From: Elainella saxicola E1
GTDB lineage: Bacteria > Cyanobacteriota > Cyanobacteriia > Elainellales > Elainellaceae
Assembly (NCBI GenBank): GCA_002796835.1
Contig: LUGL01000035.1
Coordinates: 1 to 43,603, forward strand
Reading direction: 5' to 3'
DNA: 43,603 nucleotides
Shown here: positions 7,572 to 43,603 of the stretch, in pieces
Position numbering within the stretch: the stretch's first letter is position 1
Layout: every line of letters begins with the position of its first letter
The notes under the pieces: model-generated
Seen by the model: only the letters and a program-made list of their open reading frames with translations
Databases searched by the model: none
Told to the model about the DNA's origin: nothing
Translations under genes and position numbers: made by a program

Positions 7572-8722
7572 CCGAACTGCATCCTTCTGCGTTAGCGGCG
7601 ATTCCGTCGCCCTGTTTTGTGCTGGAAGAAACGTGCCTGCGGCAAAATCTCGCCATTTTTGAACGAGTTCAGCAAGCAGCACCAGTGCAAATTTTGTTGG
7701 CGCTCAAAGCCTTTGCGCTGTTCCATAGTTTTCCGCTGATTCGCCAGACCTTACCGGGTGCATCGGCCAGTTCAGTTTGGGAAGCTCAGCTCGCTGCGGA
7801 AGAATTTGGCGGTGAACTGCATGTCTATTCTCCAGCCTATCGGGATGAAGATGTGCCCCAGATTTTGAATCTGGCCTCTCATCTGACGTTTAACTCGATC
7901 GGCCAATGGGAGCGGTTTCGTCCTATGTTGGATCATTCCCCTAACCGTCCCTCGATCGGTCTACGTATCAATCCCGAATATTCGCCCGTTCAAACCACGC
8001 TTTATAATCCCTGCCAACCCGGTTCACGATTAGGGGTACGGTCGGAGCAGTTGGGCGATCGGTTACCGCCCGGAGTGGAAGGCTTCCTCTGCCATAACCT
8101 TTGCGAGAGTGATTCTAAGGCGCTGGAAAAAACCCTGTCGCAAATCGAAGCGCTGTTTGGCCAGTTTCTGCCGCAAATGCGGTGGCTGAATCTGGGGGGC
8201 GGTCATTTGATGACGCGAGAGGGGTATGACCTGGACCATCTGATTGCCATTCTCAACGCCTTTCACGATCGATATCCCCACATTTCCCTGATCTTGGAAC
8301 CCGGTTCTGCGATCGTCTGGCAAACCGGCTTTTTGCTGAGCACCGTTCAAGATATTATTCCGACGCCGGACCTCACCCATGTGTTGCTGGATGTTTCCTT
8401 CACGGCTCATATGCCAGATTGCCTGGAAATGCCCTATCAGCCTGTGATTCGCGGAGGTCATCCGGTCCAAACCGGAGAATATCCCTATCGCATGGGCGGA
8501 TCGAGTTGTCTAGCGGGTGATTTCATGGGAGATTACGCCTTCCCTCAACCGTTGGCAATCGGCGATCGGCTCATCTTCGAGGATATGATGCATTACACCA
8601 TGGTGAAGACGACGATGTTTAATGGCGTGACTCATCCGGCGATCGGCACGCTGAAGCAAACGGGAGAATTTGAACTCTGGCGACAGTTCTCTTACGACGA
8701 TTACCGGACAAGGATGGGTTAA
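7568..8722 (+). CDS. nspC: Carboxynorspermidine decarboxylase
   Basis: A 384-residue fold-III PLP decarboxylase. Lys-47 in LLALKAFALF is the expected Schiff-base lysine. Other signatures are SSVWEAQLA, GLRINPEYSPV, GSRLGVR, LNLGGGHLMTREGYD, LEPGSAIVW, PDCLEMPYQPVIRGG and MGGSSCLAGDFMGDY. The Cys in SCLAGD corresponds to the active-site cysteine of ornithine/diaminopimelate-type decarboxylases. It decarboxylates carboxynorspermidine or carboxyspermidine to norspermidine or spermidine, completing the S-adenosylmethionine-independent triamine route begun by the preceding gene. The start ATG 7568 overlaps the upstream stop. The downstream methyltransferase begins 3 nt after this stop, so the three genes form one operon. 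Confidence 0.93.
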   Translation: MTELHPSALAAIPSPCFVLEETCLRQNLAIFERVQQAAPVQILLALKAFALFHSFPLIRQTLPGASASSVWEAQLAAEEFGGELHVYSPAYRDEDVPQILNLASHLTFNSIGQWERFRPMLDHSPNRPSIGLRINPEYSPVQTTLYNPCQPGSRLGVRSEQLGDRLPPGVEGFLCHNLCESDSKALEKTLSQIEALFGQFLPQMRWLNLGGGHLMTREGYDLDHLIAILNAFHDRYPHISLILEPGSAIVWQTGFLLSTVQDIIPTPDLTHVLLDVSFTAHMPDCLEMPYQPVIRGGHPVQTGEYPYRMGGSSCLAGDFMGDYAFPQPLAIGDRLIFEDMMHYTMVKTTMFNGVTHPAIGTLKQTGEFELWRQFSYDDYRTRMG

Positions 8723-8724
8723 TC

Positions 8725-9384
8725 ATGTCTAACAAAACCTTCATAGACGATCGTCTCTATGACTACCTGCTGTCGGTTTCTTTGCGAGAGCCGGAAATTT
8801 TGCAGCAGTTACGGCAGGAAACGGCAGCCCATCCCATGAGCCAGATGCAAATTGCGCCAGAACAGGGGCAATTCATGGCCTTTTTGGTGCAGTTGATGGG
8901 AGCCAGGAAAGCGTTGGAGGTCGGCGTTTTTACCGGATACAGTGCTCTTTCGGTCGCTCTGGCATTACCGGCGGATGGGTTACTGATGGCCTGCGATGTC
9001 AGCGAAGAATATACGGCCATTGCTCGCCGCTATTGGGAACAGGCCGGTGTTTCAGCCAAAATCGATTTGCGAATTGCGCCTGCTTTGGAGACGCTCGAGC
9101 AGTTATTGGCCACAGGTCATGCCAATACATTCGATTTTGCATTTATTGATGCAGATAAAAGTAATTACCCCAATTACTACAAACTTGTCTTGCAGCTCAT
9201 ACGGCCTGGGGGCTTGATCGCCATTGATAATGTGCTGTGGTCCGGTCAAGTAGCCGATCCACAAGTGACTGATAACCGCACTGAAAAGATTCGATCGTTC
9301 AACCAGATGCTGTATCAGGACGATCGGATTACGCTCAGCCTGTTGCCGATCGCTGATGGGCTGACGTTGGCTCTGAAGAAATGA
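8725..9384 (+). CDS. Class I O-methyltransferase, cation-dependent (caffeoyl-CoA OMT family)
   Basis: A 219-residue protein of the Methyltransf_3 family. Motif I is ALEVGVFTGYSALSVALAL, followed by ACDVSEEY, and the metal-binding segments FIDADKSNYPNYY and AIDNVLWSGQV are intact (Asp of DADK and the DN pair). Known of cyanobacterial members such as the Synechocystis Slr0095 type: they methylate catechol-like substrates with a divalent cation. It sits 3 nt after nspC and is almost certainly co-transcribed with the polyamine genes. A catechol methyltransferase has no obvious step in triamine synthesis, so its role there is open. The gene ends 17 nt before the convergent CorC-type gene. Confidence 0.88.
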   Translation: MSNKTFIDDRLYDYLLSVSLREPEILQQLRQETAAHPMSQMQIAPEQGQFMAFLVQLMGARKALEVGVFTGYSALSVALALPADGLLMACDVSEEYTAIARRYWEQAGVSAKIDLRIAPALETLEQLLATGHANTFDFAFIDADKSNYPNYYKLVLQLIRPGGLIAIDNVLWSGQVADPQVTDNRTEKIRSFNQMLYQDDRITLSLLPIADGLTLALKK

Positions 9385-39481: not shown

Positions 39482-40324
39482 TTAGAGAGCTTGCTGAGGC
39501 GGCATCACTACCTTACGAGCCAAGCCCACCTGCTTCAGCAGCCAAATCACCCACCAAGTCATATCAATTTCCCACCAGCGCCAACCCGCTTTAGCAACAT
39601 TCGGGTAAGCATGATGATTGTTATGCCAGCCCTCGCCATAGGTGAAAATAGCTGCCCACCAGAGGTTACAAGAATTATCTTCTGTGGTGAATGTGCGGTA
39701 TCCCCACATATGAGTGACGGAATTGATCATCCAGGTGGTATGCCAGAGTAAAACAGCCCGCAGTACCACGCCATAGATCACAAATGACCAGCCGCCTAGG
39801 GCATACAGAATCAGCGCCACCGGGAGTTGCAGCAGCAAAAAGTTTCGATTCAGCCAACGATAAAACGGATCGCGCACCAAGTCTGGGGCAAACCGTTTGT
39901 AATCTTCATACTTGAAGAACTCGGAACGGGGATAAAAGATCCAGAGCATATGGCTCCACCAGAATCCGCGACGGGCAGAATAAGGATCTTTGTCTTCATC
40001 TTCCGTGTAGGCATGGTGTAAGCGATGGCCAGCCACCCAAAAAATTGGTCCACCTTGCAGCGCCGCAGCGCCAATCAGAGCGATCAGATATTCCAACCAC
40101 TGGGGCACTTGAAAACTGCGATGGCTTAAAAGCCGATGATAGCCCAGACAAATGCCAATGCTGCCAAACAACCAGTGAAGAAACAGCATTGCCCCCAACG
40201 CGGACCAAGAAAAAAACCAGGGGGCCGACAATGCCAACAAATGCACTGTTGTAAAAAAAACTACGGCAACCCAATCAAGCTTCAACTGGTCTTGGGGCGT
40301 AGTTTGCAGATGATTCGATGTCAT
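39482..40324 (-). CDS. Delta-9-type acyl-lipid/acyl-CoA desaturase (DesC-like)
   Basis: 280 residues with all three histidine boxes of membrane desaturases: HRLLSH (box 1, after GICLGY), HRLHH (box 2, followed by AYTEDEDKDPYS) and HNNHH (box 3, in EGWHNNHHAYP). Membrane segments flank them. These eight-histidine enzymes put the first double bond in acyl chains using oxygen and ferredoxin. Box spacing and the CLGYHRLLSHRSF context are DesC-like. It follows the BchE-like gene by 117 nt on the same strand. In some cyanobacteria a desaturase gene (desF) ends the ChlR-activated low-oxygen operon, so a low-oxygen isozyme is possible (inference). Confidence 0.9.
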   Translation of the reverse strand: MTSNHLQTTPQDQLKLDWVAVVFFTTVHLLALSAPWFFSWSALGAMLFLHWLFGSIGICLGYHRLLSHRSFQVPQWLEYLIALIGAAALQGGPIFWVAGHRLHHAYTEDEDKDPYSARRGFWWSHMLWIFYPRSEFFKYEDYKRFAPDLVRDPFYRWLNRNFLLLQLPVALILYALGGWSFVIYGVVLRAVLLWHTTWMINSVTHMWGYRTFTTEDNSCNLWWAAIFTYGEGWHNNHHAYPNVAKAGWRWWEIDMTWWVIWLLKQVGLARKVVMPPQQAL

Positions 40325-40441: not shown

Positions 40442-42490
40442 TTATCCCATTGGAACAGCAGAAGTCAATACAGAATTAATTGCCGGATCTTGATAACGAC
40501 CGTTGCGATCGGTCAAGCGCACCGCTTCAGCCAGCTGTTGAATGGAGGCATCCTTGAGGCAGACCGCATCGGCTCCAGCAGATAAGATATCAGATGCGTT
40601 CGACTGCTGTTCTGGCGGAATCAACACCAGAATTTTAGAAGGTGTCACATAGGAATTAGCCTGTACTTTGCGGACCATCCGCAGGAACTTAGCAACATCC
40701 ATGTCGGGTAGTGTGCTGTCTACAACCGCGACATCGACATCGATCGACTCCAATAGAACCAGTCCGGTTTCGGCATTCGTTGCTTCACTGGCAACTTCAA
40801 TCCCATCCTGTGCCCTCAAGTTAGCTCGCAAATCCAGGCGCGTCTGCTGCTCATCTTCAACAATCGCAACTTGAATGGTGTTATGAACGAAATTAGGAGC
40901 CGCCTGAGCAGGGAGATGGCTTTCGACTTCTGGCAGATCGTTCGGCCCACCGCAGGCTGAAATCGTGCCGAGAAAGTCAATATCCGCAGGACGTTCCTGA
41001 GTCAGCTGGGCCAATTGTTCAGAAGAAAGAATCCGCGATTCATCAAAGCCAAATTCAATCTCGGTGCGTAAGCCTTTCTGCTTCACCCGCTTCAAGTTAT
41101 AGAAGCGCTTATTCAGTGTGGTCTTCACGAAAGCCTTCAAACAGCCTAACAGATAGCGTCGCTTAAACGGATCAGGCTCAAACCAATATTCAATCGTCTT
41201 ACGCATGTAGAAGCGGGCATAATTCCGCAGCACTCCCTTCAGCAACTCTTCGCGCGTCAGATTATCAGGCTTGAGAATCGGCGTCACAAAGTTGTAGTGG
41301 GAATAGTCCCGAATTTCCACTTTGTCGGCCAGATCTTGAAACAGCTCGGAGAACGGCCAGGGCGTATACATGTTCCAGTTGGTCATGTCGGCCTGCCAGT
41401 CGCGCGTCATTCGATAGGTTTCTTCGATCGTCTCCATCGTTTCGTTGGGCAGTCCCATAATAAACTGCACCTCAGCCACGATGCCATTTTGACGCAAGAG
41501 CTGCACCGCCCGTTTGTTATCAGCGATCGTCGTTTCTTTGCGGAAGACATTCAGGTTTAGCTGCGCCGCTGCTTCCGTTCCCAGCGACACATGCACCAGT
41601 CCAGCTTTGCGGTAGAGCGGCAGTTCTTTCTCATCGCGCAAAATATCGGTGACCCTGGTGTTGATGCCCCAGTGAACATCCAGATTGCGATCGATCAGCT
41701 CATTGCACAGCGCCACAAACCGGGATTTGTTGATTGTCGGTTCCTCGTCCGCCAAAATAAAGAAGCCAACCTTGTGATCCTTGACCAGCCGTTCAATCTC
41801 ATCCACGAAATTTTTGGGAGAACGAGAGCGATACTTACGCCAGAACTTCCATTGCGAACAAAACCGACAGCGGAACGGACAGCCCCGTGAATAGTTGGGA
41901 ACCGCAACCCGAGTATTCAGCGGCGTGTAGATATATTTCTCCCACTCCAATAAGCTCCAGTCAGGCGTCAAGGTATTCAAATCCTTGATCGGTGGATGGG
42001 CGGGTGTTGCGACAATCTTACCAGCTTCCAGGAAAGCAATCCCCAGAATCTCGCGTCGATCGGTCTCATCTGTGCCGTTATCGATCGATCGCAGTAAGTT
42101 GACCGTAATTTCCTCTCCTTCACCGCGAATGATGTAGTCAACCCACGGGGCCTCACTCAATACCTCCCGGTACATATAGGTTGGGTGTACACCACCCATG
42201 ATCGTTTTAGCATTCGGACAGACTGCTCTCACGATTCTGAGCGTCTCTTGCGATTTATAGATCATGGGTGTGATCGCGGTTGCCAGCACCACATCAGGCT
42301 GATAATCCCGAATCAATGCCGCCAGCTGATCGTCAGCGATGTCATTTGTCATCGCATCAATGAATTTAACCTCAGTGAAGCCAGCCGTTTTCAATGCTCC
42401 ACCGACATAGGGAACCCAACTCGGAGGCCAGTTTCCAGCAATCTCCGCTCCGCCAGAGTGATAGTTGGGTTGAATCATCAGGATACGCAT
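40442..42490 (-). CDS. BchE-like B12-binding radical SAM protein with C-terminal receiver-like domain
   Basis: 682 residues. The N-terminal cobalamin-type domain (about 1-140) opens [20 protein letters not shown], followed by [14 protein letters not shown] and FIDAMT, typical of BchE/ChlE, the oxygen-independent Mg-protoporphyrin IX monomethyl ester cyclase. The radical SAM cluster is Cys-204/208/211 in [11 protein letters not shown]. Family proteins end near residue 530. Here about 150 residues more form a receiver-like domain (539-660): acidic pocket EDE 545-547, candidate phospho-Asp 591 ([12 protein letters not shown]) and Lys-646 (CLKDAS), but the switch Thr/Ser is Ile-624. Not every cyanobacterial homologue has cyclase activity, so the reaction is likely rather than certain. 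It starts 20 nt after hemN. Confidence 0.82.
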
Positions 42491-42510: not shown

Positions 42511-43603
42511 TTAGATTGCCTTAGAGAAATTGGCTGTGATTTTCTGTCTCAAATAGGCATCAAAGGCAGAGGCAATGTTGCGAATCAACAGCCGCCCAGG
42601 GGGTGTCACTTCAATGTGGTTATGGGAAAGGGTAATCAAACCATCGGCTTCGAGCTTTTTCAGTTCAGACTGTTCGCAGAAAAAATATTCGTCGAAATCC
42701 TGGTCAAAGCTGAGGTGATATTTTTCCTGCAGTGCATCCTTCGACAACTGGAATTGACACATCAGCTCCATGATCACGGTGCGACGAACCACATCATCAT
42801 GATTCAGCGTTACTCCCCGTTCGATCGGCAAAACACCACCATCGATCGCCTGGTAGAAATCCTTCAGCCGCTTGTGGTTCTGCACATAGACATCATGCAG
42901 CATGCTGATCGAAGTGACGCCAAAGCCGATCAGATCTGATTCCGGTTTCGTAGTGTAGCCCTGGAAGTTGCGGTGGAGTTGACCTTCTCGCTGAGCTACC
43001 GCCAATTCATCATTCGGCTTCGCGAAGTGGTCCATGCCAATAAACTGATAGCCGTTCTGGGTCAATTCCTCAATGGACATCCGTAAAATATCCAACTTCT
43101 CCGAAAGTTGTGGCAACGTTTCATGGATGATCTTGCGCTGGATGGGCTTCAGCCAGGGCACATAGGCAAAATTGAAGACCGCAATCCGTTCGGGATCCAA
43201 TTTCAGCGTCTTTTGAATCGTGTCGCGGAAGGTATCTAGCGTCTGATAAGGCAGCCCATAGATCAGATCCACATTGACGCTCTCAAAGCCTGCCTCTTTG
43301 ATCCAATCCATCACGTTGAACAACAAAGCTTCCGGTTGAACGCGATTTACGGCCTCTTGAACTTTGGGGTTAAAGTCCTGAATGCCAAAGCTAATACGGT
43401 TGAATCCCAATTGTTTCAAGAAGAATACATACTCTCGATCGAGATAACGCGGATTCACTTCAATGGAAACTTCTGCATTCGGCTCAAATCGAAAATGTTG
43501 ATTGATTGCATTCCATAACCGTTCGACTTGACTAAGTGATAAATAGTTGGGCGTGCCGCCACCCCAGTGCATTTGGTTCACCGATCGTCGATCGTACTTG
43601 ACT
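42511..43603 (-). CDS. hemN: Oxygen-independent coproporphyrinogen III oxidase HemN (start off window)
   Basis: The frame stays open to the window edge (upstream codons read [10 protein letters not shown]), so the N-terminus with the radical SAM C-x3-C-x2-C cluster lies outside. The visible part has [81 protein letters not shown] and the C-terminal HemN domain ([16 protein letters not shown], then [31 protein letters not shown]). HemN decarboxylates coproporphyrinogen III to protoporphyrinogen IX without oxygen, using two SAM. With the BchE-like gene 20 nt downstream it suggests an operon for tetrapyrrole synthesis at low oxygen. Confidence 0.95.

Follow-up and report, generated by a model that had tools for sequence, protein, structure and literature searches.

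A predicted oxygen-independent cyclase (ChlE) of cyanobacteria carries a NarL-type pseudo-receiver domain with one nearly invariant side

Background

The oxygen-independent Mg-protoporphyrin monomethyl ester cyclase is known as BchE or ChlE. As of a 2015 review, no reconstitution of the oxygen-independent ring-E closure from purified BchE had been achieved, and its passages on the enzyme mention no partner; bchE was listed for 2 of 37 cyanobacteria, and the words 'receiver' and 'response regulator' do not occur in the main text (PMC4500134). In Rhodobacter capsulatus, a bchE mutant was reportedly restored by the orthologues of two Cyanothece strains (PMC4944227). A receiver domain that lacks any one of five residues is termed a pseudo-receiver, and the activation and inactivation of bacterial pseudo-receivers are said to remain a mystery (PMC12632262). 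Here we describe a gene of Elainella saxicola E1 in which a predicted ChlE continues in frame into such a domain. It lies on a stretch of 43,603 nucleotides (contig LUGL01000035.1, assembly GCA_002796835.1), in the following referred to as the window. Cyanobacterial ChlE is already known; among the matches listed in the open-access literature none describes a ChlE-receiver fusion. The receiver has a broken switch and one side that is almost frozen, which suggests that it holds another protein rather than receiving a phosphate signal.

Results and discussion

The open reading frame of 682 amino acids (positions 40442-42490, minus strand) is uninterrupted. By its profile the window protein is an oxygen-independent Mg-protoporphyrin monomethyl ester cyclase, with the activity predicted from a match of residues 2-495 to TIGR02026 (BchE) of 777.1 bits, above the equivalog cut-off of 481.35. 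The CxxxCxxC motif of the radical SAM cluster (C204-x3-C208-x2-C211) was invariant in 20 sequences. Residues 541-658 matched PF00072 (Response_reg) with an E value of 6.7e-11 and 42.8 bits, above the gathering score of 30.2. About 20 variable residues link the motif ISACGGPND (residues 510-518) to the start of the receiver at residue 539, and the protein ends about 20 residues past α5; a C-terminal helix-turn-helix DNA-binding domain was not found. Modelled alone (22 sequences), the tail adopted a (βα)5 fold with a mean predicted local distance difference test score (pLDDT) of 91.4 and a predicted template modelling score (pTM) of 0.86. Its ten best PDB matches in Foldseek were receivers or regulators of the NarL/LuxR family (E 1.3e-9 to 1.3e-8; template modelling score by query 0.71-0.85), and the closest paralogues found were NarL-type regulators with 37-44 % identity to the tail. 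These paralogues are probably Rre1/Ycf29. The tail is a true receiver fold of the NarL type without the DNA-binding half. An earlier note on this DNA had proposed a BchE-type protein fused to a receiver at residues ~539-660; profile, fold and the conservation of the fusion in other genomes bear this out. An ACGG/ACGA-like motif near the BchE C-terminus recurs from proteobacteria to cyanobacteria, with the Cys missing in two sequences (L062, L070); in the fusions it is located at the linker (window 40937-40963).

The residues of the phosphorylation switch were compared in 30 receivers, 29 fused and one separate (the sequences of L050 and L078 are identical; L084 was excluded). The window protein has kept E545, D546, D591 and K646, the latter in CLKD, and has Ile-624 at the switch position, all as the earlier note had read them. 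The acidic pocket given in the note as 545-547 needed correction: E545, D546 and E547 are present, but when aligned with the NarL paralogues, which read E-D-H, E545 and D546 form the acidic pair and E547 lies one residue further. Thus four of the five residues of a phospho-competent receiver (two acidic residues, phospho-Asp, Ser/Thr, Lys) are present. Across the 30 receivers the switch Ser/Thr position is held by V23 A3 L3 I1, without a single Ser or Thr, and the Mg-site Asp position by A15 D14 Q1, with Asp absent in 16. The phospho-Asp position reads D28 G1 A1, the two exceptions being L088 and the separate receiver of genome G040 (Ala in G040), and the conserved Lys position K28 L1 R1. Eight residues after the phospho-Asp (D+8), where a Gly was scored, L28 V2 were counted and Gly never. 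An alternative set of 29 rows (with L084, without L094 and L095) gave D15 A13 Q1 at the Mg site and again no Ser/Thr (0/29). The complete set of five residues together with the D+8 Gly was present in all 19 NarL paralogues compared. On the tree of the cyclase cores the Mg-site residue changed its state (Asp or not) four times among 27 fused rows. By the definition of PMC12632262, a PF00072 match in which one or more of the five catalytic residues are missing, all 30 receivers including that of the window are classed as pseudo-receivers.

The earlier note had considered a phosphorelay-type input to the cyclase. It is disfavoured by the absence of Ser/Thr in 30/30, of the Mg-site Asp in 16/30 and of the phospho-Asp in 2/30 receivers, and by the β2-α2-β3 region being the most conserved part of the domain. 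Two other suggestions of the note, a phospho-independent switch or protein docking, fit better. In a rival reading, that of an altered but still phosphorylation-dependent switch, D591 would be phosphorylated by a histidine kinase or a small phosphodonor and would change cyclase activity without the usual Thr-Tyr coupling. The retention of the phospho-Asp and of the Lys in 28 of 30 receivers each speaks for such a switch, as do E545, D546, D591 and K646 of the window protein, which is among the less degraded, only the Thr and the D+8 Gly being gone, so that D591 could still be phosphorylated there. We regard this switch as quite unlikely in view of the complete loss of Ser/Thr, the repeated changes at the Mg site, the missing phospho-Asp in L088 and the separate G040 receiver, and the relaxation of α4-β5.

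Conservation within the domain has shifted from one side to the other. Among the fused rows (27 of 29, leaving out L077 and L085), compared with the 19 NarL paralogues, pairwise identity rose in β2 (1.00 against 0.73) and α2 (0.92 against 0.61) and fell in α4 (0.43 against 0.81) and β5 (0.60 against 0.95), while α1 (0.69) and α5 (0.56) of the fused rows were ordinarily conserved. Residues 564-591, which comprise β2-α2-β3 and end with D591, showed 95 % pairwise identity, the radical SAM cluster region 195-240 92 %; none of 5000 column shuffles matched the observed peak of 28 residues. The named loci had been fetched by peptide patterns inside this block, a bias towards conserved copies. Twelve fused rows obtained by whole-protein search alone gave an unchanged profile (block 0.97, α4 0.45, β5 0.61), with the 28-residue peak again at 564 and unmatched in 5000 shuffles, which speaks against a selection bias as origin of the block. 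Fourfold synonymous sites differed by 0.61 in the block and 0.64 in the core, and by 0.57 and 0.63 in the ten rows found without block patterns (the twelve minus two plasmid rows). Since the synonymous divergence nearly equals that of the core, the constraint on the block acts on the protein; a constraint at the DNA or RNA level was excluded. The gain of conservation is confined to β2 and α2, because the paralogues already show high conservation of β3 (0.92). Such a profile fits a domain whose β2-α2-β3 side would touch something conserved and which would no longer need its switch. The α1-β2-α2 surface is among the regions considered to have possibly gained function in pseudo-receivers (PMC12632262).

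Two further readings were considered. In the first, the tail might pair two ChlE chains or shield the cluster, with no outside partner involved. Dimers are common among receivers, and for pseudo-receivers 15 structures were reported as dimeric in the absence of phosphorylation, but NarL/FixJ receivers dimerise via α1-α5 (PMC12632262), helices of ordinary conservation here, and the separate copy in G040 would require a different explanation; such a dimerisation or stability module appears very unlikely to us. The second reading is a thiol redox sensor, in which oxygen would drive C644 into a disulfide and so shut down or oligomerise the oxygen-sensitive enzyme, with thioredoxin reversing the effect. 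C644, two residues before the conserved Lys, is a Cys in 27 of 30 receivers and 18 of 19 paralogues. That these paralogues are Rre1, and that the Cys of Rre1 corresponds to C644, is our supposition. Rre1 of Synechocystis, a NarL/LuxR regulator (PMC13421787), oligomerises when oxidised, has a highly conserved receiver Cys, and is restored to monomers by TrxA (PMC9321951). The Cys is missing in 3/30 receivers, may be merely inherited, and the strongest conservation is found elsewhere, in β2-α2; a redox sensor is thus an unlikely explanation.

The fusion occurs in a range of cyanobacterial genomes. Among 60 examined, that of the window together with those of 59 relatives, it was present in eight, one of them (G015) with an in-frame stop, and an unfused ChlE in two; some match at E 1e-3 was obtained in 59 of the 60, mostly to other radical SAM proteins or receivers. 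In the order of the window, ChlE was present in 6 of 36 genomes and always fused (6/6; these six also belong to the 60). A sample of the phylum with 386 genomes contained ChlE in 17 (E up to 1e-100), 4 fused and 13 unfused, and the receiver family of the tail (E up to 1e-27) in five, namely the four fusions and G040. The pattern scan of 84,980 named genomes yielded 26 loci, of which 23 were on chlE, one was partial and two were unrelated receivers. Plasmid records added fusions in Kovacikia minuta (L094) and Pseudanabaena ABRG5-3 (L095), the latter being the one annotated fusion encountered and named simply as the cyclase. Altogether we counted 25 cyanobacterial genomes besides that of the window with an intact fusion, made up of 20 among the 23 named loci (L068-L090) and of L094, L095, G041, G012 and G208. 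Five loci (L042, L043, L045, L046, L047) were taken, by their length, as the same contigs as L077, L071, L072, L083 and L074 and were not counted. The survey of homologues for the extension, proposed in the earlier note, was thereby positive, and an artefact of assembly or a frameshift joining two genes, which the note had named as a possible refutation, was ruled out by these uninterrupted frames. Unfused cyclases (14 cyanobacterial and 4 proteobacterial) were open reading frames of 522-571 amino acids without a receiver; the four proteobacterial BchE came from plasmid records, and the search for BchE-receiver fusions outside the cyanobacteria was confined to them. Among viral contigs, 21 pattern matches included no relative. 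The unfused ChlE of one genome (L058, G079) carries at its end a ISACGAPNDLPEFVES motif repeated in tandem. In the Kovacikia minuta CCNUW1 plasmid pA (L094, 6456-10037) hemN, chlE and the receiver share one open frame of 1193 amino acids, which is a triple fusion, or has lost the hemN stop, or contains a sequencing error. The fusion on plasmid ABRG53d of Pseudanabaena sp. ABRG5-3 (L095, 8001-10046) lies near psbA and genes annotated as phage tail proteins.

Three of the 23 named loci are broken: L084 has an internal deletion, and L077 and L085 have split frames in their chlE-receiver genes, which may be sequencing errors. In Planktothrix rubescens (L091) a stretch next to the desaturase gene matches the receiver in part (59 residues, 49 %); no chlE frame was found, and we took the stretch for a remnant. 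In G002, of the genus of the window, some 30 N-terminal codons are all that is left of chlE between hemN and the desaturase gene (L041, ~8640-8745), a loss by deletion. These five broken or remnant copies, together with the decay of several key residues, are what a functionless passenger would leave behind, a domain fused by chance and drifting to loss. We consider a passenger highly improbable, as a stretch of 28 residues has been kept at 95-97 % pairwise identity across many genera with ordinary synonymous divergence, and survives almost unchanged in the separate G040 receiver.

The tree of 45 cyclase cores, from which L077, L084 and L085 (all broken) and L038 (the separate receiver) were left out, grouped 27 fused sequences with the unfused ChlE of G040 (support 99/95). 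A single clade of all fused sequences was not rejected by the approximately unbiased test, with p-AU 0.53 for the core and 0.29 for the tail (tail tree without L084). The simplest reading of these trees is one fusion event with G040 just outside, the branches at the base being unresolved. G040 has a separate receiver of 128 amino acids that belongs to the family of the tail (61 % identity to the window tail) and was found by whole-protein search. On the single contig of this genome its gene is far from chlE, between the gene of an ABC-type ATPase and a Pbs27 homologue. The receiver shares 25 of 28 residues with the block of the window protein, and one of the three differences is the Ala at the phospho-Asp position. 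The ChlE of G040 ends in KI, as do 4 of 13 other unfused cyanobacterial ChlE. Because a single fused clade was not rejected and because of this KI ending, we lean to a pre-fusion state in G040 rather than a secondary fission.

With little better than even confidence, and on the ground of sequence comparisons, we propose that the anaerobic cyclase has recruited a NarL receiver as a docking module that works independently of phosphorylation. A receiver of the NarL type without its DNA-binding half would have joined the C-terminus of ChlE in an ancestor shared by several lineages of cyanobacteria, a single event being the simplest assumption. It would have lost its phosphorylation switch and become a docking module, whose β2-α2-β3 side would bind one conserved partner and keep the cyclase in a complex. 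As candidate partners we consider the cyclase itself, its own core, its electron donor or an enzyme that neighbours it in the pathway. We infer a putative binding site in the frozen stretch, and binding rather than phosphorylation as its function. A more specific version is possible yet doubtful: the receiver would have served as a subunit of ChlE, separate first as in G040 and then fused, its frozen side docking a needed partner (electron donor, HemN or the next enzyme), in a role like that of Ycf54 for AcsF.

Several points weigh against the docking module. The phospho-Asp and the Lys, each kept in 28 of 30 receivers, are not needed by a pure docking module and also weigh against the rejection of a phosphorelay input; the Asp closes the frozen block and may be kept for another reason. 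As noted, β3 is conserved in the paralogues as well. No partner of the tail was identified. The full-length model was poor (pLDDT 63.0, pTM 0.52; 20 similar sequences), so a contact between receiver and ChlE core could not be read from it. Thirteen of the 17 cyclase-bearing genomes of the phylum sample do without the receiver, which therefore is dispensable for catalysis as such. The separate form comes from one genome, G040, the sole genome of its order in the set searched for further separate receivers.

The gene lies between hemN and a fatty acid desaturase gene (Table 1). The upstream hemN is on the same strand, with 20 bases between its end and chlE; its 5' end lies beyond the window. Another genome of the genus (G001, L047) has acsF (TIGR02029, 515 bits) followed by the genes for heme oxygenase, HemN, the ChlE-receiver, the desaturase, a radical SAM protein and an NrdG-like protein (114.3, below the cut-off of 126.1). 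This order resembles a low-oxygen tetrapyrrole cluster; the bchE of Cyanothece PCC 7425 is described as lying just downstream of chlAII-ho2-hemN (PMC4500134). Past the desaturase, L047 (10136-12805) encodes, besides the radical SAM and NrdG-like proteins, a protein whose match to FabK falls far short of the cut-off. Of the 23 named fusion loci, 19 had enough contig to look for hemN directly upstream, and 10 of these had it; the desaturase followed directly in 12 of 22. As the neighbours are shared by only part of the loci, the fusion is also found away from this cluster.

Table 1 Features of the window in the region of the chlE-receiver gene
Feature	Position	Strand	Evidence
chlE/bchE-receiver fusion gene, 682 aa	40442..42490	(-)	Open reading frame list, profile matches
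B12-binding domain, residues 14-132	42095..42451	(-)	PF02310, E 2.8e-23
Radical SAM domain, residues 200-361	41408..41893	(-)	PF04055, E 2.9e-26
ISACGGPND, conserved BchE C-terminal motif, residues 510-518, at tail junction	40937..40963	(-)	Alignments
Pseudo-receiver domain, residues 539-662	40505..40876	(-)	PF00072, model, Foldseek
Frozen block β2-α2-β3, residues 564-591, last residue = phospho-acceptor-position Asp-591	40718..40801	(-)	Identity profiles
Ile-624 codon, switch Ser/Thr position	40619..40621	(-)	Ser/Thr in 0/30 members
hemN (oxygen-independent coproporphyrinogen III oxidase), upstream neighbour	42511..43602	(-)	TIGR00538, 550.6 bits
Fatty acid desaturase, neighbouring gene 117 bases downstream of chlE	39482..40324	(-)	PF00487, E 2.1e-22

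Comparison with known systems

The additional domain, conserved and with one stretch frozen, offers together with its natural separate version a direct handle for finding a partner or regulator of the anaerobic cyclase. The fusion family also presents a natural series in which the phosphorylation switch of a receiver is lost and another stretch newly comes under constraint. With known ChlE/BchE the window protein shares the B12-binding and radical SAM core and a score over the equivalog cut-off, and with the bchE of Cyanothece PCC 7425 the position beside hemN (PMC4500134), but it has about 145 extra C-terminal residues that form the receiver. The tail resembles the cyanobacterial NarL/LuxR regulators in its E-D active-site pair and its Cys-x-Lys motif, whereas the 19 regulators compared have the full switch and a DNA-binding domain and the ChlE tail has neither. 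As in the pseudo-receivers and atypical response regulators treated in PMC12632262, function is suspected at α1-β2-α2; unlike them, the ChlE tail is joined to an enzyme of tetrapyrrole biosynthesis and not to a regulatory output domain. Ycf54, the accessory subunit of AcsF, is alike by analogy only, as a small non-catalytic protein on a ring-E cyclase (PMC7319587); AcsF is an unrelated enzyme, and the likeness is drawn without a comparison of sequence or structure.
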